From contig JAFYEM010000019.1 of NCBI GenBank assembly GCA_017544265.1, forward strand, positions 1-50,566: a stretch of DNA of 50,566 bases, read 5' to 3'. The notes under the pieces are model-generated. The model was given only the letters and a program-made list of their open reading frames with translations. It searched no databases and was not told where the DNA came from. Positions 5,265 to 41,670 of the stretch are shown in pieces (position 1 is the stretch's first letter; the number at the start of each line of letters is the position of its first letter). This DNA is from Bacteroidales bacterium (GTDB lineage: Bacteria; Bacteroidota; Bacteroidia; Bacteroidales; UBA932). Both the position numbers and the translations under genes were made by a program.

Positions 5265-7808
5265 ATGAAGAAAAAAATACTGCTCTTCGCGGCGGCCCTG
5301 CTGCTTGCCGCAATTCCCACATTCGCTGTCCTCAGCGAAGATAATCTGGCAGGTACGCTCTCGGTTCTCAGGTATGAACTTCGCAGCGCCTGCGAGTCCC
5401 GTGCGGAGTTCTCCAAGCGCATGAAGAGCCGCGGCGACAGGCAGCACGCCCGCCTCGTGTCCATGATGCAGCGGAGCAACGAACTATCGCTGATGCTCTA
5501 TTCGCAGAAACAGGACTATACCTTCGACATGACCTATGCGCTCAACGAGGTGTCCAAGCAGTACGAGGAGTTCTCTTCGCGCAAGCTGCCCTTCGACGAC
5601 ATCCTGAGGCGTCTGGACATAGATATAGACCGCTATGACCGCCTTGTGCATACCCTTCGCAGCCTGCCCCCTTCCTCGGTCATGGAGTATGTGGACAGTG
5701 CCGGAAGAGTGAATTATCTCGCCGCGCATCAGCACCCTGCGCTAACCTACGGGGAACAGGAGCGCCCGTTCCAGCTGGATTCGGCGGGAATCGCTGACCG
5801 CGACAGCTGCATCGTCTATGCAAAATGGCTGCTGGATGACTGTCTGCAGCAGAAAGAGAGGCTGGTGCGGGATTCCACTCATTACCAGGAGACCGCCGAC
5901 ATGCTGAAATCCGCTTATGACTATGCGCAGGAACGTTACAAGAATGTCCAGACCAAGATTTTCATAGACGGTCAGTCAGATTATGCAACCATCGTCGGCC
6001 AGTTCGGCCGCTACTGGCACCAGGCTGTGTCTGACGCCACCGACAAATACAGCCGTGACCCCAATGGAGATGTCCACAGCCAGTGGAGGGGGCCTATGGT
6101 CGCCGGTTTCGGCATTTTCGTGCTGTTCTATCTGATTGTTTCGGGAGTTATAGCCTCGGTGCTTGTGGCCGTGCTTCGACGCCGCGGACGTTTCGCCGCC
6201 AAGACCTATTTCCAGAACAACTCCTTCGCGATGGTGCTGATTGCAACTGTGGTCATTTTCGCAATTTCCACAATGTTTGCTGCGGCACTGTCCTCCCAGC
6301 ACTTCTTCTCCATGGCAGCAGCCCTGCTGATAGAATTCGCCTGGATGCTTGCGGCAATCCTGATTTCGCTGGTAATCCGCTACAAGGGCTCGTCCGTGAA
6401 AAAGGGCTTCGGCATGTACGTTCCCGTCATGCTTATGAGTCTGGTGGTCATTGCCCTCCGCATCGCCTTTGTCCCCAACAGCCTTATAAACATCATCTTC
6501 CCGCCTGTGCTGCTGATTACGACCGCAGTCCAGGGACTGGTGCTGTTCAGACTCGGCCGGAAGGTCAGGGGCGGCGACCGCATCTTCGGCTGGGTATCCT
6601 TCGCAGTCATGATTCTCACCTCGGCAGTGGCCTTCAGGGGCTATGTCCTGCTGGGCATCCAGCTGCTTATATGGTGGTTCTTCCTCTTGACCCTGCTTCA
6701 GACCATAACCGCCGTCTATGACCTCCTGGACATGTTCTATCACAGCCATATCCGGAATTCCACGGCGGCATACATAAAGAATCATCCGGACCGTCCGCAC
6801 CGCACTGACGAAGACCTGATTGCAGTGACCTGGTTCCATTCCCTTGTGAAAAAGGCCCTGCTTCCCATGGCGATAGTAATATCCATACCGCTCAGTCTGT
6901 TCATGGCTTCCGGGGTATTCGACCTGAAGGGAATCTTCGCGAATTACTACAGCTATCCCTTCCTCAATGTGGAAGGTTATGTGAGCCTTTCCTTCTCCAG
7001 AATAATCCTTGTCGTGTGCTTGTATTTCGTTTTCGGCTATCTGAACTACCTTTTCGGAGCACTCTACCGCCAGTGGAAAATCAGCGAAATACTCTCCAAA
7101 TCATCCGGCGGCTATTTCAATGAGAACGAAGTGAACTTCACCCTTGCCCGGCATATCATAGGCATAATCCTGTGGAGCGTCTATGTAATTTCACTGTTCG
7201 TCCTGCTCAGTATTCCAACTACTGCCGTCAAGGTCATAGGCGCGGGACTTGCCACTGGTCTGGGCTTCGCCATGAAGGATATACTTAACAACTTCTTCTA
7301 CGGGGTCCAGCTGATGTCCGGCCGCCTGAGGGTAGGGGATTATGTGGAGTGTGACGGAGTCCGGGGAAAGGTGGACAGCATAAGCTATCAGAGCACGCAG
7401 ATCATTGCTTCAGACGGCTCCGTGATGGCTTTTCCCAACGCCACGCTTTTCAACAAGAATTTCAAGAACCTGACGCGCAACCACGGCTACGAACTGCTTT
7501 CCTTCGAGGTGGGCGTTAAATACGGCTCCTCTGTGGAGCAGGTCCGGGATATCATTCTCGCCGCGATGCAGCCGCTCTGCATCAAGGACAAGTACGGACG
7601 GGAGATAGTGGAGCCGAAGTTCGGCATAGAGGTCCGCTTCAAGGAGTTCGGCGACAACAGCGTAAACCTGCAGATTCTTCTGTACACCACCGTGGAAGAG
7701 CATTTCTCCTTTGCTGCGAAAGCTAAGGAACTGATATACATAGCGTTGAATGACAATGGAATAGAAATTCCATTCCCGCAGAGAGATGTTCATATCAAAA
7801 ACGATTGA
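5265..7808 (+). CDS. Large MscS-family mechanosensitive ion channel
   Basis: 847 aa, far longer than E. coli MscS (about 286 aa) and closer to the large MscK/MscM-like members. A signal peptide precedes a periplasmic, coiled-coil-like region (residues about 25-270). Then comes a series of hydrophobic segments from about residue 277 (GFGIFVLFYLIVSG) onward. The pore and MscS signature lie near residues 655-690 (GAGLATGLGFAMKDILNN, then GRLRVGDYVECDGVRGKV), followed by the cytoplasmic beta and alpha/beta domains. These channels open on membrane tension and release solutes during hypo-osmotic shock. It lies directly behind the GH3 gene, and repeat element A follows the stop codon by a few bases and probably ends the transcript. 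Confidence 0.93.
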   Translation: MKKKILLFAAALLLAAIPTFAVLSEDNLAGTLSVLRYELRSACESRAEFSKRMKSRGDRQHARLVSMMQRSNELSLMLYSQKQDYTFDMTYALNEVSKQYEEFSSRKLPFDDILRRLDIDIDRYDRLVHTLRSLPPSSVMEYVDSAGRVNYLAAHQHPALTYGEQERPFQLDSAGIADRDSCIVYAKWLLDDCLQQKERLVRDSTHYQETADMLKSAYDYAQERYKNVQTKIFIDGQSDYATIVGQFGRYWHQAVSDATDKYSRDPNGDVHSQWRGPMVAGFGIFVLFYLIVSGVIASVLVAVLRRRGRFAAKTYFQNNSFAMVLIATVVIFAISTMFAAALSSQHFFSMAAALLIEFAWMLAAILISLVIRYKGSSVKKGFGMYVPVMLMSLVVIALRIAFVPNSLINIIFPPVLLITTAVQGLVLFRLGRKVRGGDRIFGWVSFAVMILTSAVAFRGYVLLGIQLLIWWFFLLTLLQTITAVYDLLDMFYHSHIRNSTAAYIKNHPDRPHRTDEDLIAVTWFHSLVKKALLPMAIVISIPLSLFMASGVFDLKGIFANYYSYPFLNVEGYVSLSFSRIILVVCLYFVFGYLNYLFGALYRQWKISEILSKSSGGYFNENEVNFTLARHIIGIILWSVYVISLFVLLSIPTTAVKVIGAGLATGLGFAMKDILNNFFYGVQLMSGRLRVGDYVECDGVRGKVDSISYQSTQIIASDGSVMAFPNATLFNKNFKNLTRNHGYELLSFEVGVKYGSSVEQVRDIILAAMQPLCIKDKYGREIVEPKFGIEVRFKEFGDNSVNLQILLYTTVEEHFSFAAKAKELIYIALNDNGIEIPFPQRDVHIKND

Positions 7809-7814
7809 TACGAT

Positions 7815-7943
7815 GAAAAAATTACCTGCATCGCTTTCATCGCCTGTGCCACCCTCGGCACCATAAGAGGGAGGGGCCCAACGCAGTTGGGAGGGGTCGC
7901 CTGGAAGGCGACGGTTAGATGAAAGCGATGCAGGTATTTTTTC
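7815..7943 (+). repeat. Repeat element A: GGGAGGGG-hairpin core inside a long terminator-like stem
   Basis: Outer arms 7815-7840 and 7919-7943 are reverse complements with one bulged base. The left arm starts with an A-run and the right arm ends in a T-run, so the whole can act as a two-way intrinsic terminator. The 74-nt core (7841-7914) holds three hairpins: GTGCC/GGCAC (7846-7861), CCCAAC/GTTGGG (7877-7891) and TCGCCT/AGGCGA (7897-7911). The second and third are each preceded by GGGAGGGG (7869-7876 and 7889-7896). The core matches element C at 72 of 74 positions, whereas the arms do not match. It lies between the MscS gene and the DMT transporter, both on the plus strand. Confidence 0.85.
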
Positions 7944-7970
7944 ACAATAACTGAATGTATTATATTATTG

Positions 7971-8858
7971 ATGAAGTGTAAGGTTTCAGCGTACCTGGCA
8001 GCTGTCGGCACTGTGCTGCTATGGGGAATGTCCTACATCTGGGCGGACAGATTATTGGAGGCGGGGATTCCCGTTGAGTTTTTCGTACCGGTGAGAACTC
8101 TTCTCGCCGGAGTCCTGCTGCTGATTTTGAACCTGATAGCAGGGCTGGACATGAGGCTGAGGCGGAAGGATATCTGGCGCTTCGCACTGCTGTCCCTGTG
8201 CATGCCTTTCGTGTACTTCATTGCCGAGACCTACGGCCTGGGACTCACTGAATCTCCGACCATCACTTCCCTCGTGATAGCGACCAACCCGCTTTTCGCG
8301 ATGATGGCCGGGATTTTCATTTTTAAGGAAAAATTCGGCTGGAAGAATATCCTTGGCGTGTTCATCACTCTCGCCGGCCTATGGCTGGTGACATGGACCC
8401 AGTCGTCCACGGGGCAGTATTTCATTGCCGGCATACTGATTCTGTTCATTGCCGTCATTTCGGAAGTCAGCCAGATTGCCTTCACAAAGTCTCTTTCCGA
8501 GTCCTATTCGCCATCGGTGATCGTGATGTACCAGTTCCTGCTCGGCGCGGTGCTTTTCCTGCCCCTTTTCCTGACAAAAGGCATTGCCGCTTACGACGCC
8601 GGAGTTTACCTTTCCTGGAAAGTCATGTATCCCACCCTGGCTCTGGCGCTGCTTTGTTCCGCCACTGCCTTCTCCATCTGGGCCTATGCCATAAAACATC
8701 TCGGGGTGGCGCGCACCAGCGTCTTCCTCGCCGTGGTGCCGCTGGTCACAGCTGTGCTGTCCTTCCTTTTCGGCGACGAAGTCCTTTCGCTGTGGCAGTG
8801 GGCGGGACTTGCCGTCGCCATGGGCGGAATACTTTTGACTCAGATGAAAACTACATAG
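7971..8858 (+). CDS. DMT-superfamily (EamA) inner-membrane transporter
   Basis: 295 aa from ATG 7971; a TTG two codons earlier is less likely. The protein is almost wholly hydrophobic, with about ten membrane segments in two homologous EamA halves. Recognisable stretches are VLLWGMSYIWADRLL at the start, ITSLVIATNPLFAMMAGIF in the first half and LFGDEVLSLWQWAGLAVAMGGILL at the end. EamA proteins export or import small metabolites, and the substrate cannot be predicted from sequence. It stands 24 nt before the arginine-deiminase-type gene, so it might move an amino acid or an intermediate of that pathway; this is inference from position only. Confidence 0.88.
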   Translation: MKCKVSAYLAAVGTVLLWGMSYIWADRLLEAGIPVEFFVPVRTLLAGVLLLILNLIAGLDMRLRRKDIWRFALLSLCMPFVYFIAETYGLGLTESPTITSLVIATNPLFAMMAGIFIFKEKFGWKNILGVFITLAGLWLVTWTQSSTGQYFIAGILILFIAVISEVSQIAFTKSLSESYSPSVIVMYQFLLGAVLFLPLFLTKGIAAYDAGVYLSWKVMYPTLALALLCSATAFSIWAYAIKHLGVARTSVFLAVVPLVTAVLSFLFGDEVLSLWQWAGLAVAMGGILLTQMKTT

Positions 8859-8882
8859 ACAATTTATACTACCACATAATTT

Positions 8883-9800
8883 ATGGAATTACACGTAACA
8901 TCTGAAACTGCGAGGCTGAGGGAAGTAGTACTTGGCTGGCCTTTTTCATCAGGTCCCGTCCCGACGCTTGAAGAAACATGCGACAGCAAATCATACGAAT
9001 CTGTACTCAACGGGGTGTACCCTGCCGAGGAGGACATAGTAAGGGAGATGGGGGCCTTCGAAGCCATACTGAAAAAGTATGACGTGAAGGTCTATCGTCC
9101 GGCTCCGGTGGAAAACTGCAATCAGATATTTTCCCGCGACGTCGGTTTTGTCATAGATGACAAAATCATAGTCTCCAACATCATTCCCGACCGTCAGGCG
9201 GAGATCGACGCCTATGAGAACATATACCGCCAGATTCACTACAAGAACATCTACAACCTCCCCGAGACGGTGCATGTGGAAGGCGGCGACGTGGTGCTCT
9301 GCGGTGAAACGATTTTCCTCGGGCAGTATGATTTTCCGGATTACCGGGAACTCAAGACAGCAAGGACCAACCGCCTTGCCCTGGACTATCTTAGGATGAT
9401 TTTCCCGAATAAGGAGATTGCCCCTGTGAATCTCAGAAAGAGTGATACGGATCCTCTTGAGTGTATACTACATCTGGACTGCACCTTTATGCCGGTAGGC
9501 CGCGGCAAGGCGATAATCTACAGGCCGGGATTCATGAATCCGCGCGATGCTGACCATATCATAGAGCGCTTCGGCCGCGAGAATGTGTTTGAGCTGACTC
9601 TTCAGGAGATGTACTACATGAACTCCAACATTTTCTCCATTTCCCCCGATGTGGTTGTTTCGGAAGAGCATTTCACACGCCTGAACACTCACATGAAGGA
9701 AGTCTGGGGAATGACCGTGGAGACTGTGCCGTACAGGGAGATTTCCAAGATGGGAGGTCTTCTCAGGTGTTCCACATTGCCGCTTAGAAGAGATGAGTAA
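8883..9800 (+). CDS. Arginine deiminase/DDAH-type amidinohydrolase
   Basis: 305 aa, shorter than classical ArcA (about 410 aa) and closer in size to dimethylarginine dimethylaminohydrolases. It carries the guanidino-modifying enzyme triad: Glu133 in VHVEGGD, His197 in LHLDCTFMPVG and Cys296 near the C-terminus in MGGLLRCSTLPLRR. The motif FSRDVGFVI is also typical. The stop overlaps the carbamate kinase start by 8 nt, and ornithine carbamoyltransferase follows. The likely reaction is therefore L-arginine to citrulline plus ammonia, the first step of the arginine deiminase pathway, in the cytoplasm. Alternatives are a methylarginine hydrolase or another amidinotransferase-fold enzyme. Family certainty is high and substrate certainty moderate. 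Confidence 0.85.
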   Translation: MELHVTSETARLREVVLGWPFSSGPVPTLEETCDSKSYESVLNGVYPAEEDIVREMGAFEAILKKYDVKVYRPAPVENCNQIFSRDVGFVIDDKIIVSNIIPDRQAEIDAYENIYRQIHYKNIYNLPETVHVEGGDVVLCGETIFLGQYDFPDYRELKTARTNRLALDYLRMIFPNKEIAPVNLRKSDTDPLECILHLDCTFMPVGRGKAIIYRPGFMNPRDADHIIERFGRENVFELTLQEMYYMNSNIFSISPDVVVSEEHFTRLNTHMKEVWGMTVETVPYREISKMGGLLRCSTLPLRRDE

Positions 9801-10785
9801 GCTTGCAGTAGTGGCCTTTGGCGGCAATGCGCTGCTTAGGGCCGGTCAGGCCGGTACATTTGAAGAACAGTTGGAAAATGTCACCCGCACCTGTTCTCAG
9901 CTACGGCCTTTGCTCCGCGAGGGTTACAATATTATAATAGGTCACGGGAACGGCCCCCAGGTCGGCTCGGCCCTTCTTCGCCACGAGGCCGGCCACCGCC
10001 AGTTCGGTCTTCCCGCCATGCCCATGGACTTCTGCGGGGCGGAAACCCAGGGCAGCATAGCCTACCTGATCGAAACCGCTATGGAACGCGTCCTGCGCGA
10101 AGAAGGCATAGACCGGCGTGTCGTGTCTATAGTGACGCGGGTTGAGGTCGATGCGGCCGACGAGATGTTTTCCAATCCCACCAAGCCCGTCGGCCCGTAT
10201 TATACCGTCGCCGAGGCCGAGGCCCTCGCCGCTTCCGGCGCCGGAGTCTATCGCGAAGATCCCCGCGGACGCGGCTGGAGGAAGGTCGTAGCATCACCCA
10301 AGCCTGTGCGTATCAGCAATATAGACCTTGTCGGGCGCCTTGCCCGCGAGGGAAATATAGTGGTGACTGTCGGCGGGGGCGGGATTCCGGTCGTTGCCTC
10401 TGAAGCAGGGCACCGCGGCGTCGAAGCCGTAATAGACAAAGACCTTGCCTCCGCGCTTGCGGCTGTCCAGGTCGGTGCGGATGAATTCTATATCCTCACT
10501 GACGTGCCTAAGGTCTATATAAACTTCCGGACTTCTTCCCAGCAGGCCCTCGACACTATGACTGTCGCAGAGGCGGAGCGCTATCTTGCCGAAGGCATGT
10601 TCACTGAAGGTTCCATGGCCCCGAAGGTCCGCGCCGGCATTTACTTCGTCACCGCGAATACGGCTACGGAAGACAGGGCCCCGTCGGCTGGACAGGGTGA
10701 CGACGCCTCCGAGTTCCGCCAGTGCGTAATCACTGAAGCATCAGAGCTGCAAAACCCTGCGTGTGGAACAAGAATTATTCAATAA
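9793..10785 (+). CDS. arcC: Carbamate kinase
   Basis: 330 aa, a little longer than the usual 310. Recognisable parts are the N-terminal VVAFGGNALLRAGQ, the substrate loop IIGHGNGPQVG, a central FSNPTKPVGPYYT segment, the glycine-rich VTVGGGGIPVV and the C-terminal GSMAPKVRAG. It transfers phosphate from carbamoyl phosphate to ADP and gives the ATP yield of arginine breakdown. Translational coupling to the amidinohydrolase (8-nt overlap) and the ornithine carbamoyltransferase downstream support the pathway assignment. Repeat element B begins 9 nt after the stop, which could reduce read-through into the third pathway gene. Confidence 0.94.
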   Translation: MSKLAVVAFGGNALLRAGQAGTFEEQLENVTRTCSQLRPLLREGYNIIIGHGNGPQVGSALLRHEAGHRQFGLPAMPMDFCGAETQGSIAYLIETAMERVLREEGIDRRVVSIVTRVEVDAADEMFSNPTKPVGPYYTVAEAEALAASGAGVYREDPRGRGWRKVVASPKPVRISNIDLVGRLAREGNIVVTVGGGGIPVVASEAGHRGVEAVIDKDLASALAAVQVGADEFYILTDVPKVYINFRTSSQQALDTMTVAEAERYLAEGMFTEGSMAPKVRAGIYFVTANTATEDRAPSAGQGDDASEFRQCVITEASELQNPACGTRIIQ

Positions 10786-10794
10786 CTCTGCTAT

Positions 10795-10915
10795 GAAAAA
10801 TAACTGACACGTTTGGAACGTGGCCGCCCGTGGCCTATGAACGGGAGGGGCCCAACAAAGTTGGGAGGGACGAGCCCGAAGGGCGAAGGTGGAAAAACGT
10901 GTGCAGTTATTTTTC
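10795..10915 (+). repeat. Repeat element B, between arcC and the carbamoyltransferase
   Basis: Outer arms 10795-10814 and 10895-10915 are complementary with one bulged base, again A-rich on the left and T-rich on the right. The core has hairpins CCCGT/ACGGG (10827-10845), CCCAAC/GTTGGG with an AAA loop (10851-10865) and GCCC/GGGC with a GAA loop (10874-10884). GGGAGGG stands before the second and third. The middle hairpin and its GGGAGGGG foot are shared with elements A and C; the first and third hairpins differ in sequence but keep the layout. It lies inside an otherwise co-directional pathway operon. Confidence 0.82.
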
Positions 10916-10950
10916 AAATAAAATAGAAAAATACAAAACAAATAATTACT

Positions 10951-11952
10951 ATGGCATACAATTTAAGAAACAGAAGCTTTCTAAAACTGTTGGACTTTGA
11001 ACCGAAGGAAATTGAGTTCCTGCTGGATCTTGCAGCGGAACTTAAAAAAGCCAAATACACAGGGACGGAGCAGCCCCGGCTCAAGGGGAAAAATATAGCT
11101 CTGATTTTCGAAAAGACCTCCACGAGGACCCGCTGCGCCTTCGAGGTGGCGGCGCACGACCAGGGCGCCCATGTCACCTACCTCGGTCCCACCGGCTCCC
11201 AGATAGGCGTAAAGGAATCAATGAAAGACACCGCTCGCGTACTTGGAAGAATGTATGACGGAATAGAATACAGGGGTTTTGCGCAGAAGACAGTGGAAGA
11301 GTTGGCTCAGTACTCCGGCATCCCGGTCTGGAACGGCCTCACCAACGAATTCCATCCCACGCAGATTCTCGCTGATTTCCTCACCATGCGCGAACACTCC
11401 GAAAAGCCGTTAAACCAGGTCGCTTACGCCTATCTCGGCGACGCCCGCTTCAATATGGGAAACTCCCTTCTTGTGGGAGGCGCGAAGATGGGAATGGACG
11501 TGAGAATAGTTGCTCCTAAGGCGCTGCAGCCTGCTGCTGAACTGGTTGCCGAATGCCGCAGGATAGCTCGGGAAACCGGAGCACGCATAACCATTACGGA
11601 TAATGTGGGCAAAGGAGTGAAAGGCTGCGATTTCATATACACCGACGTGTGGGTGTCTATGGGCGAACCGGATGAGGTTTGGAAAGAGAGGATAGACCTT
11701 CTGAAGCCCTATCAGGTAAACGCATCCCTTATGGAACGTACCGGAAATCCCGACTGCAAGTTCATGCACTGCCTCCCGGCCTACCATAACCTCGAGACCA
11801 AAGTCGGCCGCGATGTCCACGAAAAGTTCGGCCTTGACGGAGTCGAGGTCACCGAGGATGTGTTCGAGGGCAAAAACAGCATAGTTTTCGACGAAGCCGA
11901 AAACCGTATGCATACTATCAAGGCAGTAATGGTCGCTACCCTAGGACTCTGA
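10951..11952 (+). CDS. arcB: Ornithine carbamoyltransferase
   Basis: 333 aa. It has the carbamoyl-phosphate motif [12 protein letters not shown], an HPTQ box ([12 protein letters not shown]), the ornithine-binding VWVSMGEP loop and the HCLPAYH motif. These mark an ornithine carbamoyltransferase rather than the acetylornithine/succinylornithine enzymes that many Bacteroidetes use. Next to the amidinohydrolase and arcC it would run in the catabolic direction, citrulline plus phosphate to ornithine plus carbamoyl phosphate, although an anabolic ArgF role cannot be excluded. Element B separates it from arcC. Its 3' end overlaps the convergent histidine phosphatase gene by 12 nt. Confidence 0.93.
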
Positions 11953-13170
11953 GTATTGATTTAAATTATTGTAAATCAGCTCTTTCATCTCGCCCCACCG
12001 GTAGCAGCCATTGCAGACCGGTGTGAGTGTGGGTATATTGATGGGGTGCTCATTGAGAAGCGGCCACACTATCACGTCGTCCTTTTTATTGCGGAAAAAA
12101 TAGAGTTGGATGTTTGCAGCCATCGGTGTAACCTCCCAGCCTTTGTATTTGAGGTCAAGTTCCTCAAGGGAATCGATGGGTGGGACCACATCCGCGCCCA
12201 TAAGGCTCAGCAGGGTAAGTACAGGGAAATCATGTCCGAAGCGAAGGTCGACGGTGACACCGTTCCCAGCGATGGCGTCATCGGCCTTGGAAACAATTTC
12301 ATTGGCAAGAGGTCCGGAGTAGGGTATCACCGATTTGCCGGAGATGGAGTTGGCGCAGTTTTTAAGGTAGAAGAAGCGGTTGCTTCTTTTCCATCTGTAT
12401 CGAAGCTCTTCCGGAGTGAGATATTTCATCATATATGGGGCCCCTTCTATATCCTGCGCCACTGCGGCAAGACCATAGACACAACTCACAAGGGACTTCC
12501 ATTTGGCCGGATAGGCCGAAGGGTCGTCGAACAGCAATTCCTTCAGTCTCATCGTGTCGCATCCGTGAGGCTCGTCTGTTTTGAGCAAACTGTCGAGAAA
12601 TGCTTTCTGCCACTTCGGAGTCTTGACGGTCAGGACCTTCATCAATCCGTCCTTGGTGTCAACCGTCAGCGGTGTCTTCGGAGAGAGGCGCATAAGCTCG
12701 TTGGTGAAAGCCGTCATAGACAAAATACACCGTTGTACCGTCGATGAAACAGCCCTGACGCGGCCCTTGCTTCCGAAGAGCGACGGTGCCCTTTTATACA
12801 TCCCACGGGCAATAACCGTATGCTGCTCAATGCCTTTTGTGGTCAATGCTCCAACCGCTCCATTCATCAGGGAGTCCATCACCTGGACGTCTTTCAGAAG
12901 GGCTTCACCCTCCGGGGTAAGATGTCCCTCGCCCAGATATTTAAGCAGTTTCTTTTGCTCGCTGTCCCCGACATTTGTCCTGGAACCGTGACGGCCGTAA
13001 TGGCTGATATAGAAAAGCTTATAGCCTTTCGGTGCAGGCAGTTTGAGGGGGGATTCAAGATACTGATAGAGGTATCTTTCATTGGCGGCTCTTTCCGGGT
13101 TTACGGAAAAGTCCTGGGCTGCTGCTGCAAGGCATAGCAGAGCTGCAAGAAGGGAAAACAGTCTTTTCAT
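11941..13170 (-). CDS. Exported histidine acid phosphatase (MINPP/phytase-like clade)
   Basis: 409 aa with a signal peptide ([19 protein letters not shown]). The phosphohistidine motif is [11 protein letters not shown] (catalytic His61), and the proton-donor motif is FGHDFPV (His313-Asp314). This is the two-domain branch-2 histidine phosphatase layout. Bacteroidales homologues include phytase/MINPP-like enzymes, so periplasmic release of phosphate from inositol phosphates or other phosphomonoesters is plausible but not proven. Its start overlaps the nadE stop (ATGA), which indicates coupling; a scavenging theme is possible but speculative. Confidence 0.88.
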
Positions 13171-15200
13171 TTAAGTTCGTCTATGGAATTAATAAACAGG
13201 GCCCATTTGGCGTCTGAAGGCATCCTCCAGTCACCTCTGGGGGAGAGTGATACACTGCCCACCTTTGGCCCGTCAGGCATGCAGGAGCGTTTGAACTGCT
13301 GCCCTATGAAGCGTTTGAAGAAGGTCCTGAGCCAGTGCTTGATGACTTCCGGGGAGTATTTTCCGCCGAAGGCTTTACGGGCGAGGAAGAATATCTTTTC
13401 CGGGGAGGCTCCGAAACGGATGAAATGATAGAGGAAGAAATCGTGGAGCTCGTAAGGTCCCACGAGATCCTCGGTGAGCTGGGCGATTTCGCCCCTGTCG
13501 TCGGTGGGGATAAGTTCAGGTGAAATCGGAGTGTCCGCTATGTCTGAAATTATATCGGATGCTTTCCGGCCATTGGCCGCGACGCCTTGGAGCGTCTTTC
13601 CGGCCCAGCGGCAGAGATATCTCACCAGGGTCTTGGGAATGGAAGCATTCACGCCGTACATGCTCATGTGGTCGCCGTTGTAGGTGCACCAGCCGAGCGC
13701 CAGCTCCGAGAGGTCCCCGGTGCCTATCACGAGCCCTCCGGTCTGGTTGGAAATGTCCATCAGAATTTGCGTGCGCTCCCTTGCCTGGGCGTTCTCATAG
13801 GTAGTGTCCATTACGGAGGGATCATGCCCGATGTCGCGGAAGTGCTGCTCCACCGAGGGTACTACGGAGATGGCCCTGGTGGTGATTCCGAGGGCTTCCA
13901 TCAGGTCGTCGGCGTTGGTGCGGGTGCGGCCCGACGTGCCCAGTCCCGGCATGGTCACTCCGATGATCCGGTCGCGGCTCCAGCCCAGTTTGTCAAAGGC
14001 CTTGACCGTCACGAGCAGCGCAAGGGTGCTGTCCAGTCCGCCGGATATGCCTATCACGGCAGTTTTGGCCTGGATGTGGTCGAGCCTGGTCACGAGTCCA
14101 TGGACCTGTAGGGACAGAATCTCCTCGCAGCGCTCGTCCGTGTGCGGACCGGAGTGCACAAAAGGATGGGCCTCGACTTCGCGGCATAGACATTTTTCCA
14201 AGTCGGTAGGTGCCGGCGAGCCTATGTCCACGCGGGAGTAAAGCTGCGCGTAAGTAGCGGCGCCTGTGCCGTCCGGCGTGACATAATGGAAGGAACTCTG
14301 ACGCTGGCGCAGATTCACCAGCTTGTCTATGTCCAGGTCCGCTACGATCATTGTCGATACCAGCGAGAAGCGTTCCGCCTCCGCCATCAGGGTGCCGTTT
14401 TCATAAATCAGGGAAGAGCCGGTAAAGACCATGTCCTGGGTGGACTCTCCGTAGGATGCGGAGGCATAGATATAGCCCGAGAGGGAGTGGGCGCTGTGCT
14501 GGCAAACGAGATTCTTGCGGTATTTATGCTTCAACAGAATCTCGTTGGAGCCGGAGAGGTTGACTATTATATGCGCCCCGGTGACGGCATGGTACAGAGA
14601 GGGCGGAATCGGAGTCCACAGGTCTTCGCACATCTCTATTGCGAAGGTGGCGTGCCCGATAGTGAAGAGTATGTTGGGGGAGATGTTGCATCTCGTGCCG
14701 GCATAGGTCACCTCGCCACGGAAGCCCTCCCGGACGAAATTCTTTCCGTCGCAGAGAAAGCGTCCTTCGTTGTGGATGTTGCCCGAAAGGAAGTCCGAGC
14801 CGGGGGAGAACCAGCGGGGCTCGTAGAACTCATTGTAGCTCGGAAGGTAAATCTTCGGCACGATTCCCTTGATCTGCCCGTTGCGGATTACCACTGCGCA
14901 GTTGTAGAGTTTGCCGTGGTAGCGTACAGGTGCCCCGACTACTACCGTGGCAGTCAGGCCCCTGGTGTGTTCCGCAATATGCGCGACCGCCTCTTCGGCA
15001 CTGTCAATCAGCAGATTGGTTCCGAAAAGATCCGCACAGGTGTACCCCGTTACCGAAAGTTCCGGGAACACCAGCAGCGAGACCTGTTTCTCGACGGCTT
15101 CATCGATGAGCCTTTCGCATTCATCCCTGTTGAAAGCCACATCCGCGACCTTCACCCTCGGTGAAGCCGCCGCCGTCCTTATGTATCCGTAGTTTTTCAT
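13167..15200 (-). CDS. nadE: Glutamine-dependent NAD+ synthase
   Basis: 677 aa from MKNYGYIRTAAASP. An upstream in-frame ATG at 15263 would start inside repeat element C and add 21 residues encoded by the repeat, so I reject it. The N-terminal nitrilase-type glutaminase domain has Glu47 in VFPELSVTGY and Cys191 in IEMCEDLW. The C-terminal synthetase has the PP-loop GISGGLDSTLALL near residues 380-390. The enzyme makes NAD+ from deamido-NAD+, glutamine and ATP. It is coupled by ATGA overlap to the phosphatase gene downstream, and element C separates it from recG upstream. Confidence 0.95.
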   Translation of the reverse strand: MKNYGYIRTAAASPRVKVADVAFNRDECERLIDEAVEKQVSLLVFPELSVTGYTCADLFGTNLLIDSAEEAVAHIAEHTRGLTATVVVGAPVRYHGKLYNCAVVIRNGQIKGIVPKIYLPSYNEFYEPRWFSPGSDFLSGNIHNEGRFLCDGKNFVREGFRGEVTYAGTRCNISPNILFTIGHATFAIEMCEDLWTPIPPSLYHAVTGAHIIVNLSGSNEILLKHKYRKNLVCQHSAHSLSGYIYASASYGESTQDMVFTGSSLIYENGTLMAEAERFSLVSTMIVADLDIDKLVNLRQRQSSFHYVTPDGTGAATYAQLYSRVDIGSPAPTDLEKCLCREVEAHPFVHSGPHTDERCEEILSLQVHGLVTRLDHIQAKTAVIGISGGLDSTLALLVTVKAFDKLGWSRDRIIGVTMPGLGTSGRTRTNADDLMEALGITTRAISVVPSVEQHFRDIGHDPSVMDTTYENAQARERTQILMDISNQTGGLVIGTGDLSELALGWCTYNGDHMSMYGVNASIPKTLVRYLCRWAGKTLQGVAANGRKASDIISDIADTPISPELIPTDDRGEIAQLTEDLVGPYELHDFFLYHFIRFGASPEKIFFLARKAFGGKYSPEVIKHWLRTFFKRFIGQQFKRSCMPDGPKVGSVSLSPRGDWRMPSDAKWALFINSIDELK

Positions 15201-15215
15201 TATGAATAGTTTGTT

Positions 15216-15339
15216 AAAGGATTGGCTGTTCACTTTTATCGCCTGTGCCACCCTCGGCACCATAAGAGGGAGGGGCCCAACAAAGTTGGGAGGGGTCGCC
15301 TGGAAGGCGACGGCAGGAAAAGTGAACAGGCAGTCCTTT
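15216..15339 (+). repeat. Repeat element C, between recG and nadE
   Basis: Outer arms 15216-15237 and 15318-15339 pair over 22 positions, with one G-U and one G-G site. The 74-nt core (15240-15313) matches element A except for two bases in the loop of the CCCAAC/GTTGGG hairpin. The arms share no clear sequence with those of A, B or D. The GGGAGGGG-bearing strand is the plus strand here although both flanking genes are on the minus strand, the opposite relation to elements A and B. The element therefore does not have a fixed orientation relative to transcription. Confidence 0.85.
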
Positions 15340-15344
15340 CGTCG

Positions 15345-17450
15345 TCATGATATTTTACTGTAGTCTTTCTGTATGTATTTCGAGCCCTGCAGCGCCGTGG
15401 CGAGCAGTTCGTTGCGCTGCGAGGAGAGTGAAGGGTCGGCTTCGAGGACTCTGGTGGCATAGTCACGGGATTCCGCGACAATGCGGCTGTCGCGGGCGAG
15501 CGAGGCAGCCTTAAGGTCTATCGGAAGACCGGACTGCTGGGTGCCTTCAAGGTCTCCAGGCCCCCGCATCTTCATATCCTCCTCGGCAAGCGCGAACCCG
15601 TCCTCGGTGGCGCACATAAGTTCCAGTCGTTTGCGGGATTCCTTGGAAATTTTTTCTCCGCGCATGAGTATGCAGTAGGATTTTTCGCTGCCCCTGCCGA
15701 CCCTGCCGCGAAGCTGGTGCAACTGACTGAGTCCGAAGCGCTCAGAACTCTCGATAACCATCACGGAGGCGTTCGGGACATCCACCCCGACCTCGATTAC
15801 CGTAGTGGAGACCAGTATGTCCGCCCTTCCGGCAGCGAATGCGTCCATGTTGAAATTCTTCACCTCCGTGGTCTGCTGGCCGTGAACTATGGCTACCTTG
15901 TAGTCCGGCAGGGGAAAGCGGCTGACAATCTGCTCATAGCCGTTCTGAAGGTTCTGATAGTCCATCTTTTCGCTCTCGAAAATGAGCGGATAGACAATGA
16001 AGGCCTGGCGGCCCTTGGCTATTTCATCGCGGAGGAAATTGTACATCGCCAGACGTTTGTTCTCGCCTATGCAGATGGTCTGTACGGGTTTTCTGCCGGG
16101 TGGCATCTCATCGATTACGGACACGTCCAGATCGCCGTAAAGAGTCATCGCCAGGGTGCGCGGAATGGGGGTGGCGGTCATCACCAGAACGTGCGGAAGC
16201 CGTCCGTCGGTGCGTTTGGACCATAGCCTTGCCCTCTGGTCGACGCCGAAGCGGTGCTGTTCGTCAATTATCGCGAGGCCGAGATTGCGGAAGACGACAG
16301 TATCCTCGATGAGGGCGTGAGTGCCTATGATTATTCCTATGGAACCGTCGCGCAGACCGGAGTCTATTTTCTTCCTCTGCGACGCCGGGGTGGACCCGGT
16401 CAGCAGGGCCGCCTGTACCCCGGTCGGGGCGAGATATCTGGAAATATTTGCATAATGTTGATTTGCAAGTACTTCCGTGGGGGCCATAAGGCAGCACTGA
16501 TAAGCGTTGCCGACGGCAATCAGGGCGCTCAGCACGGCGACCATGGTTTTACCGCTGCCCACGTCTCCCTGCAGCAGGCGGTTCATCTGAGAGCCGCTTT
16601 TAAGGTCTTCCCGGATTTCCTTTATAACCCTTTTCTGGGCTCCGGTCAGGGAGTAGGGGAGAGCGTTGTAGCATTTGTTGAAGAACTCCCCGACACGTGG
16701 CATGGGAATGCCGTTGTCGCTTCTGGACCTGATGAATTTCTGTTTCAGCAGGGACAGTTCCAGCAGGAACAGCTCCTCGAATTTTAACCTGTAGAGAGCC
16801 TTTGCGAGGGCATTCTGGTCGGTGGGAAAATGAACTTGCCGGAGAGCAAAGCTGAGCGGGACCAGGCCCTTTTCGTGTATCACATACTCCGGAAGAGTTT
16901 CTTTCAGATGCGGAAGAGCCTCCGCCAGGGCGGAGTTCATCAAGTTGTTCATCACCTTTGCCGTGACGCCCGCGTTTTTCAGTTTCTCCGTGCTTGGATA
17001 GACACCGGTCATCACTCCCGAGCTGGCGCTGTCGGGCGGGTCTATTTCGGGATGGACCATATTCACCCGTCCGTTGAAGACGGTGGGCTTGCCGAAAAAG
17101 ATGAATGTGCTGCCCTGGGTGAGCTTGGGCCCAAGCCATTTTATGCGTTTGAAGAACACCAGTTCCATCTCGCCGGTACCGTCCCCTACAATGACTGACA
17201 GGCGGCCTTCCTTGCCGGATTTTCCGGGAAGGACGCTTTCGGAGAGAACGGTGGCCCGTATTTGGACAAAGGCCTGGTCCGGACGGATTTCGCCGATTGC
17301 GTGAATTTTGCTCCGGTCTATGTAGCGGAATGGATAGATGCCCAGAAGGTCCCCGACGGTTTCCACGCCCAGTTCCGTTTTGAACAGGGCGGCCCGTTTA
17401 GGCCCGACCTTGGGCAAATACTGGAGTTCCATTTCAAGCCCGCTTGCCAT
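15345..17450 (-). CDS. recG: ATP-dependent DNA helicase RecG
   Basis: 701 aa from MASGLEMELQYLPKVGPKRA, the usual RecG opening. A longer frame reaches back to 17561 but adds 37 unrelated residues that overlap the divergent peptidase gene. A second possible start is ATG 17432. It has an OB-fold wedge domain, Walker A LLQGDVGSGKTMVA near residue 295, the DEQH box IIDEQHRFGV near residue 395, VMTATPIPRTLAM and the QLRGRVGRG motif. RecG remodels stalled forks and Holliday junctions. Its promoter should lie in the 64-nt gap shared with the S26 peptidase gene. Confidence 0.95.
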   Translation of the reverse strand: MASGLEMELQYLPKVGPKRAALFKTELGVETVGDLLGIYPFRYIDRSKIHAIGEIRPDQAFVQIRATVLSESVLPGKSGKEGRLSVIVGDGTGEMELVFFKRIKWLGPKLTQGSTFIFFGKPTVFNGRVNMVHPEIDPPDSASSGVMTGVYPSTEKLKNAGVTAKVMNNLMNSALAEALPHLKETLPEYVIHEKGLVPLSFALRQVHFPTDQNALAKALYRLKFEELFLLELSLLKQKFIRSRSDNGIPMPRVGEFFNKCYNALPYSLTGAQKRVIKEIREDLKSGSQMNRLLQGDVGSGKTMVAVLSALIAVGNAYQCCLMAPTEVLANQHYANISRYLAPTGVQAALLTGSTPASQRKKIDSGLRDGSIGIIIGTHALIEDTVVFRNLGLAIIDEQHRFGVDQRARLWSKRTDGRLPHVLVMTATPIPRTLAMTLYGDLDVSVIDEMPPGRKPVQTICIGENKRLAMYNFLRDEIAKGRQAFIVYPLIFESEKMDYQNLQNGYEQIVSRFPLPDYKVAIVHGQQTTEVKNFNMDAFAAGRADILVSTTVIEVGVDVPNASVMVIESSERFGLSQLHQLRGRVGRGSEKSYCILMRGEKISKESRKRLELMCATEDGFALAEEDMKMRGPGDLEGTQQSGLPIDLKAASLARDSRIVAESRDYATRVLEADPSLSSQRNELLATALQGSKYIQKDYSKIS

Positions 17451-41498: not shown

Positions 41499-41670
41499 AT
41501 GATTTGTCATATACCCTCCAGGGGACCTGTCCACCCCCGGACAGGGGCAGGGGGAGGGGCCCGTTGGATACAAGTTACCGCCAGGCGGTGACGAAGTAGA
41601 CAATGGGAGGGGCCGGAGCGAAACGCATGGCGTTGAGCGGAGTTTCCCGGGAGGGTATATGACAAATCAT
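41499..41670 (+). repeat. Repeat element D, larger and divergent, between gmd and fcl
   Basis: Outer arms 41499-41519 and 41650-41670 are perfect reverse complements over 21 nt, and the right arm takes in the gmd stop codon. The core repeats the family layout with other sequences: hairpin CCTGTCC/GGACAGG (41526-41545), then GGGGAGGGG, then CCCGTTG/CAATGGG (41560-41607). The last encloses a 9-bp hairpin GTTACCGCC/GGCGGTGAC. GGGAGGGG (41605-41612) and hairpin AACGC/GCGTT (41622-41634) follow. GGGAGGG occurs once more at the right arm. Confidence 0.8.

Follow-up and report, generated by a model that had tools for sequence, protein, structure and literature searches.

Four structured elements in a Bacteroidales contig

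The window that we analysed is a 50,566-nucleotide stretch of contig JAFYEM010000019.1 from a Bacteroidales bacterium, and it carries four copies, A to D, of a structured element (Table 1). All four are intergenic, and direct reading of the sequence bears out both the positions and the shared layout of three hairpins within a long outer stem that a preliminary description had assigned to them. The core of the element (~65–90 nt) is composed of hairpin P2 with its pseudoknot, the foot GGGAGGGG, which is invariant in the family, hairpin P4, a GGGAGGG motif and hairpin P5, and it caps a closing stem of ~20–30 bp. The cores of copies A and C are nearly identical, as had been described, with a count of 74 of 76 matching positions rather than 72 of 74; the differences, GC versus AA, both lie at the apex of the second hairpin. 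In RNA folding, copies A, B, C and D gave z-scores of -8.5, -5.1, -6.2 and -4.3, respectively (copy D being folded without its outermost stem), and 0 of 200 shuffles folded as well. The arms are A/T-rich, and T-tracts are present at copies A and B.

Table 1 Positions of the four elements and their parts in the window
Feature	Position	Strand	Context, pairing or basis
Copy A, complete element (arms and core)	7815..7943	+	MscS-like gene on one side, EamA transporter gene on the other
Copy A, left arm of outer stem P1	7815..7844	+	Partner is 7913-7943
Copy A, hairpin P2, GTGCC (ACCCTC) GGCAC	7846..7861	+	Read from sequence and covariation
Copy A, P2 loop CCCTC, one pseudoknot strand	7852-7856	+	Covariation
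Copy A, GAGGG, second pseudoknot strand	7867..7871	+	Overlaps first GGG of foot; covariation
Copy A, invariant foot GGGAGGGG	7869..7876	+	
Copy A, hairpin P4, CCCAAC-GCA-GTTGGG	7877..7891	+	Covariation
Copy A, second GGGAGGGG	7889..7896	+	
Copy A, hairpin P5, TCGCCT-GGA-AGGCGA	7897..7911	+	Folding
Copy A, right arm of P1, T-tract at its end	7913..7943	+	
Copy B, complete element	10795..10915	+	Aspartate/ornithine carbamoyltransferase gene downstream
Copy B, P2, GGCC (GCCCGT) GGCC	10822..10835	+	Loop 10827-10831 with ACGGG 10841-10845
Copy B, foot GGGAGGGG	10843..10850	+	
Copy C, complete element	15216..15339	+	Flanked by recG-type and NAD-synthase-type genes
Copy C, P2, GTGCC (ACCCTC) GGCAC	15245..15260	+	Loop partner is 15266-15270
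Copy C, foot GGGAGGGG	15268..15275	+	
Copy D, complete but diverged element, P4 and P5 longer	41499..41670	+	Flanked by two epimerase/dehydratase-type genes
Copy D, P2, CCTGTCC (ACCCCC) GGACAGG	41526..41545	+	Loop CCCCC with GGGGG 41550-41554; by eye
Copy D, foot GGGAGGGG	41552..41559	+	

The elements form a dispersed family

The pattern GGGAGGGGN{4,34}GGGAGGG has 22 matches in the 1.87-Mb draft genome to which the window belongs and 0 in the reversed control. Trained on 38 diverse copies, all from outside the window and six of them from the same genome, a covariance model recovered the four window copies with E values of 1.4e-23 to 6.4e-12 and nothing else in the window up to E = 1. The same model finds 35 copies in the draft genome at E <= 0.01. 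The proposal of a dispersed repeat family is supported. The strict pattern is present in 19 of 25 genomes of the same genus, a set that includes several incomplete ones, and 16 genomes from other families gave no match. Across the order, at least six of 393 genomes were positive with the covariance model, a lower bound since 11 candidates were scored per genome; the six comprise two from the same genus (one being that of the window), one from a sister genus and three from other families. Many Bacteroidales metagenome-assembled genomes are among the matches listed in a motif scan of a genome collection, as are one Candidatus Cryptobacteroides caccocaballi genome and unrelated high-GC genomes. 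As copies were gathered with exact motifs, degenerate ones are under-counted.

Four sibling genomes (92–95% identity at one locus) hold 95 copies in total, and the sibling statistics below rest on the 90 that were fetched and parsed, whose median length is 133 bp (110–232 as delimited). Rfam gave no match over the whole window at the gathering threshold or over 7700-15500 up to E = 1. A literature search by title and start of abstract, with most subscription journals outside its scope, returned nothing on this element family.

Similar sequences were also seen elsewhere. In genome G426, from another family, the shared sequence at five loci (L539, L546, L550, L553 and L556, three of them at contig starts) reaches well past the element, and the repeated unit is longer there. 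Alphaproteobacterial loci from Caulobacter, Azospirillum, Sphingomonas and relatives (L064, L087, L091, L097, L133 and others) contain the same GGGAGGGGCCC-hairpin-GGGAGGG module set within CCCTCTCCC...GGGAGAGGG; at the five loci named it occurs as inverted pairs ~100–460 nt apart, and no pseudoknot loop was seen in this module by eye. Short viral contigs (L180, L182, L186 and similar), which we take to be inovirus-like, and unrelated bacteria (L073 from Caloramator, L248 and L220) also contain a stem closing around GGGAGGGG-CCC..GGG-AGGG.

An H-type pseudoknot at the first hairpin

The first hairpin of the preliminary description is present, but it is not a simple hairpin: the P2 loop, N-CCC-NN, pairs with NN-GGG, the GGG of which opens the foot, to form an H-type pseudoknot. 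The two variable pseudoknot bases are Watson-Crick complementary in 185 of 187 copies (many of them related and not independent), compared with an average of 65 and never more than 83 after shuffling; the 187 were taken from 210 distinct copies by omitting 23 without a parsable P2. The most frequent variable pairs are TC/GA (97 copies), GT/AC (46) and AC/GT (17), followed by CC/GG (9), AT/AT (8) and GC/GC (8). In the 38-copy alignment 98.4% of cells are paired versus 79.8% in shuffled controls, double changes number 101 versus 30, and sliding the pseudoknot partners abolishes the covariation signal. Alignment A1 was selected on P2 pairing, so the 100% pairing of P2 is not evidence, and copies also had to contain the loop CCC and the GGG feet; the weight therefore rests on the two variable pseudoknot pairs and on P4 pairs 4–6.

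At P4 pair 4 (n = 136) there are 75 A-T, 50 G-T, 10 G-C and one T-T pairs and no A-C, a bias suggestive of folding in the GGGAGGGG strand rather than in its complement. The evidence is mixed given pairs 5–7, at which A-C (7, 20 and 12) exceeds G-T (0, 1 and 1), perhaps on account of internal loops in long P4s.

Two kinds of extra sequence within the P2 region were seen. L299, L320, L383 and L413 have a GC-rich hairpin unit nested within the P2/pseudoknot region that resembles the insertion of one element into another, and L009 and L024, from the genome of the window, share an extra A/T-centred palindrome of ~40 nt within P2.

Closing arms change faster than the core, and both orientations occur

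Outer-stem length has a median of 28 pairs, compared with 15 when the right flank is taken from another copy; it is the medians alone that separate the two, as 104 of 207 chimeric controls also reach 15 pairs. In genome G023, 47 copy pairs share 95% identity or more across a 39-nt stretch of the core, and their left arms have a median identity of 45%, versus 42% for random 22-mers. Arms are less private in the genome of the window, where they are 64% alike in 29 pairs with similar cores, and a faded arm consensus of the kind GGGTATATGTTCCC-AAACC can be recognised in the cluster of four sibling genomes. Because of this consensus and the 64% likeness, we regard the arms as part of the element and probably inherited, changing far faster than the core. 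None of 55 arm 16-mers was found away from any element in 0.9 Mb of sequence, which is partial coverage. The locus-specific arms had also led us to consider inverted target duplication as their source; this was ruled out by clean empty sites that lack arms. At L382, in the ribF region of genome G199, the arms are mismatched in an apparent recombinant of two alleles, which could be a metagenome assembly chimera.

We delimited 25 orthologous groups manually from flank matches, splitting two merged clusters and excluding L420 and the L383/L413 pair; 14 of them include the element in both orientations. In particular, the 77-nt core of L364 and L401 is identical yet inverted, while both arms are letter-for-letter identical in place. 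L391 and L438 likewise share an identical 63-nt core, with one base differing in the arms. The P4 variant also differs between L372 and L400, and the core types differ between L363 and L418; at such sites replacement or separate insertion is possible.

Arms that are mostly perfect yet fast-changing, on cores that are near-constant, might point to retroposition, in which a pseudoknotted RNA would be the template for new DNA and its arms would be re-made each round by self-priming. The H-type pseudoknot and the G-T pairs without A-C at P4 pair 4 would fit such a route, which we nevertheless consider unlikely: single-stranded DNA also forms G-T pairs, the other P4 pairs lack the bias, and the faded arm consensus fits simple inheritance with drift.

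Many copies lie in frame within genes

In the sibling genomes 48 of 90 copies have an open frame of at least 50 codons on each side, although in a few cases the frame lies on the wrong strand of a real gene and in one (L408) it is spurious. The term terminator-nested, used in the preliminary description, is apt for the A/T-rich arms of the species of the window and fails for the family, given these copies in reading frames. The family does not show the layout of an intrinsic terminator, a stem and then a T-tract at gene ends, which the T-tracts at copies A and B match only in part, and sibling arms mostly end without a T-tract (by eye).

NCBIfam models span the insert in YgiQ, MurB, DapF, MetG, a rhamnosyltransferase-like protein, MurE (L416), RibF (L099) and an MFS transporter (L392). 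The match is in two stretches for UvrA, MetH, an FAD enzyme, TilS (L301), YggS and TruB (L386); one side alone is recognised for TruA, TrmB and AroB, and L364, L385 and L394 gave no NCBIfam match at 1e-20. At L387, L388 and L429 murE is in frame on the opposite strand. The MurE protein reads CEEIPEG-insert-IEF in genomes G280 and G238, the insert is inverted in G304, and in G398 a small palindrome of nine codons occupies the same position. G280, a metagenome-assembled genome with a reported contamination of 6%, contains two murE copies with the element (L387 and L388), a duplication that is possibly contamination.

At coding sites all 21 non-zero length differences are multiples of three, compared with 11 of 29 at other sites, of which L372 (ligA-like 3' end) and L374 (ksgA-like 5' end) are by eye probably coding and contribute three of the 11. 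Orthology of the sites was assigned from DNA homology, irrespective of frame, and members whose flanks matched poorly were left out. Because the 21 differences are divisible by three, the insert is probably translated as a peptide. The copies use both orientations and two or more sense frames. The exception to frame keeping is L408, where a frame shift breaks a TrmH-like gene. The genome of the window has one clear in-gene copy, L015, between kinase-like and RapZ-like parts. In an open-run test, which mixes genes with gene pairs, 115 copies had at least 60 open codons on each side, 53 in frame and 62 not. When 10 of the 62 were checked with Pfam, both sides were recognised, as different genes, in four, one side in two and neither in four.

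The closing stem joins the ends of the element and copies lie in housekeeping genes, as might be expected of an intron-like element removed from the mRNA or of one skipped by the ribosome. Conservation of the frame in 21 of 21 length-variable comparisons disfavours splicing or bypass, the insert is open in both orientations, and an inverted core would be unable to form the same RNA, so that we judge either process to be highly improbable.

Elements are present or absent as units between relatives

When 30 joined flanks were queried against the four sibling genomes and G398, which is more distant, 18 loci had one or more counterparts that lack the element. Because of these 18 sites the element family appears mobile. 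At 11 of the 18 (L391, L431, L439, L409, L380, L432, L442, L376, L395, L375 and L371) nothing else is in place, with flanks that have diverged at several of them. The other seven (L374, L394, L402, L405, L387, L392 and L428) have a short remnant, a different small palindrome or other sequence in the counterpart. For example, at the L394 site G199 retains 27 nt and G398 18 nt that resemble arm remnants. Some empty sites could be precise losses. The L380 element lies in the middle of CTGA-TCAG and that of L442 within the T-tract of a terminator-like hairpin. By eye, possible direct repeats of 4–6 bp, which would be candidate target-site duplications, flank L391, L376 and L375; L380 and L432 show no obvious ones.

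At sites filled in the siblings, other genomes hold a different palindrome of ~24–36 nt (L449 in murE, L462/L474, L467 and L476). Several small palindromes resemble the CGTC-type repeat GATTCCCGGTCAGGCCGGGAATGACG, which has 11 close matches in 0.7 Mb of loci.

This variation bears on whether the element is instead a structured RNA or bidirectional terminator that serves the host and is under selection. The strong covariation and the A/T-rich arms with T-tracts at copies A and B speak for a host function. Presence and absence between relatives, both orientations in more than half of the orthologous groups and the 48 sibling copies within reading frames argue against it, and we regard it as very unlikely.

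Y1-type enzymes do not track the element

The preliminary description related the elements to REP sequences mobilised by RAYT transposases. It saw no transposase in the window, and none lies beside the copies that we looked at. The sole Y1/HUH-type ORF of the genome of the window is at L055:1399-2283; it encodes 294 residues and matches PF01797 below the cut-off. Y1-type proteins of ~300 residues are common in the genus, and such matches were obtained for 15 of 19 element-bearing genomes and for three of the six that lack the element, so that they do not separate the two groups; G014, a 70% complete genome, has 14 element copies and no Y1 match. We inspected 13 Y1-type loci of ~2–3 kb, a part of the many Y1 matches, 12 of them from the genus and nine of these from element-bearing genomes. 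The foot GGGAGGGG was found in 0 of the 13, and a RAYT/IS200-like gene flanked by the same hairpins, which had been suggested as a target for searching, was thus not among them.

Composite REPs moved by a RAYT-like Y1 (HUH) transposase would account for hairpins with a fixed 5' foot, and the genus has proteins of suitable type, including the weak match in the genome of the window. The elements are larger than REPs and have the foot GGGAGGGG rather than a GTAG/GGAG or CGTC tag, and, together with the 13 loci and the distribution of Y1 matches, this tells against the proposed kinship, which we find improbable. Y1 subclasses without REPs have also been reported (PMC6006769). A Y1/HUH enzyme that acts from elsewhere is a possible, though unsupported, mobiliser.

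A model for the element family

Small non-autonomous selfish elements, with a pseudoknotted core on a closing stem and inserting between or inside genes, are probably what these dispersed copies represent, present or absent as units, covarying in structure, conserved in frame and found in both orientations at orthologous sites. The whole unit, core and arms, would insert between genes or within them, with gain rather than precise loss being the probable direction at each variable site. A mobility enzyme acting in trans may recognise a folded single GGGAGGGG strand, as single-stranded DNA or RNA. The arms would drift, their complementarity alone mattering, and inversion may occur by strand switching or by recombination at the palindrome. 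Within genes mainly frame-keeping copies would persist, and translation would continue through them to give a peptide insert, much as for Rickettsia palindromic elements. The frame shift at L408, the possible precise losses, the single clear in-gene copy and the less private arms in the genome of the window, the mixed strand bias of P4 and the constancy of the core in apparently inert copies count against selfish elements.

A bolder proposal, on the doubtful side in our estimate, is a new class of mobile nucleic acid in which a pseudoknotted single strand (RNA or single-stranded DNA) is the substrate of transposition and the closing stem is re-made from one arm at each jump. If true, such a substrate would explain the near-perfect locus-specific arms, the near-constant core and the frequent flipping in place, and the element would keep writing new, orientation-switchable peptide inserts into essential enzymes. 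The same enzyme genes are available from the sibling genomes with the site filled, empty or inverted, which makes tolerance of random insert peptides, target choice and inversion directly testable, and the pseudoknot offers a handle for finding the mobilising enzyme.

Comparison with known systems

MITEs are shorter than 500 bp, have no coding capacity of their own and end in inverted repeats. The family described here is similar in these respects and in being present or absent as a unit (18 loci, 11 of them clean). MITEs, however, share their terminal inverted repeats, whereas here the ends tend to vary from copy to copy, more so in G023 than in the genome of the window, and no parent transposon was found. 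Mitochondrial byp elements and the T4 gene 60 bypass are hairpins within reading frames; they differ in that frame conservation here favours translation through the insert.

REPs are palindromes of 20–40 bp with a tetranucleotide tag and often an adjacent RAYT gene. GTAG- and CGTC-tagged REPs and REPINs resemble the present family as dispersed hairpins with a fixed foot, some of them intragenic, and differ from it in size, tag and RAYT neighbour, the family here having a median of 133 bp and the foot GGGAGGGG. According to PMC3733652, some REPs lie within genes and, in several other bacteria, are translated inside proteins, and the tRNA pseudouridine synthase B gene of R. conorii is interrupted by RPE-1. 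Rickettsia palindromic elements are ~150 bp long and many are in frame in unrelated genes (PMC10969869). The likeness is that of in-frame palindromes in unrelated protein genes, with a truB copy here as well (L386). The Rickettsia elements are from another phylum; the family here has a pseudoknotted core, locus-specific arms and both orientations at orthologous sites, and a conserved peptide like that of the Rickettsia elements was not found among copies that use both orientations and two or more sense frames. Rickettsia palindromic elements appear to be the closest in behaviour, a likeness drawn by description and not by sequence. The behaviour itself is known from Rickettsia palindromic elements and REPs, and the present elements are a structurally defined family of in-protein palindromes in uncultured gut Bacteroidales.
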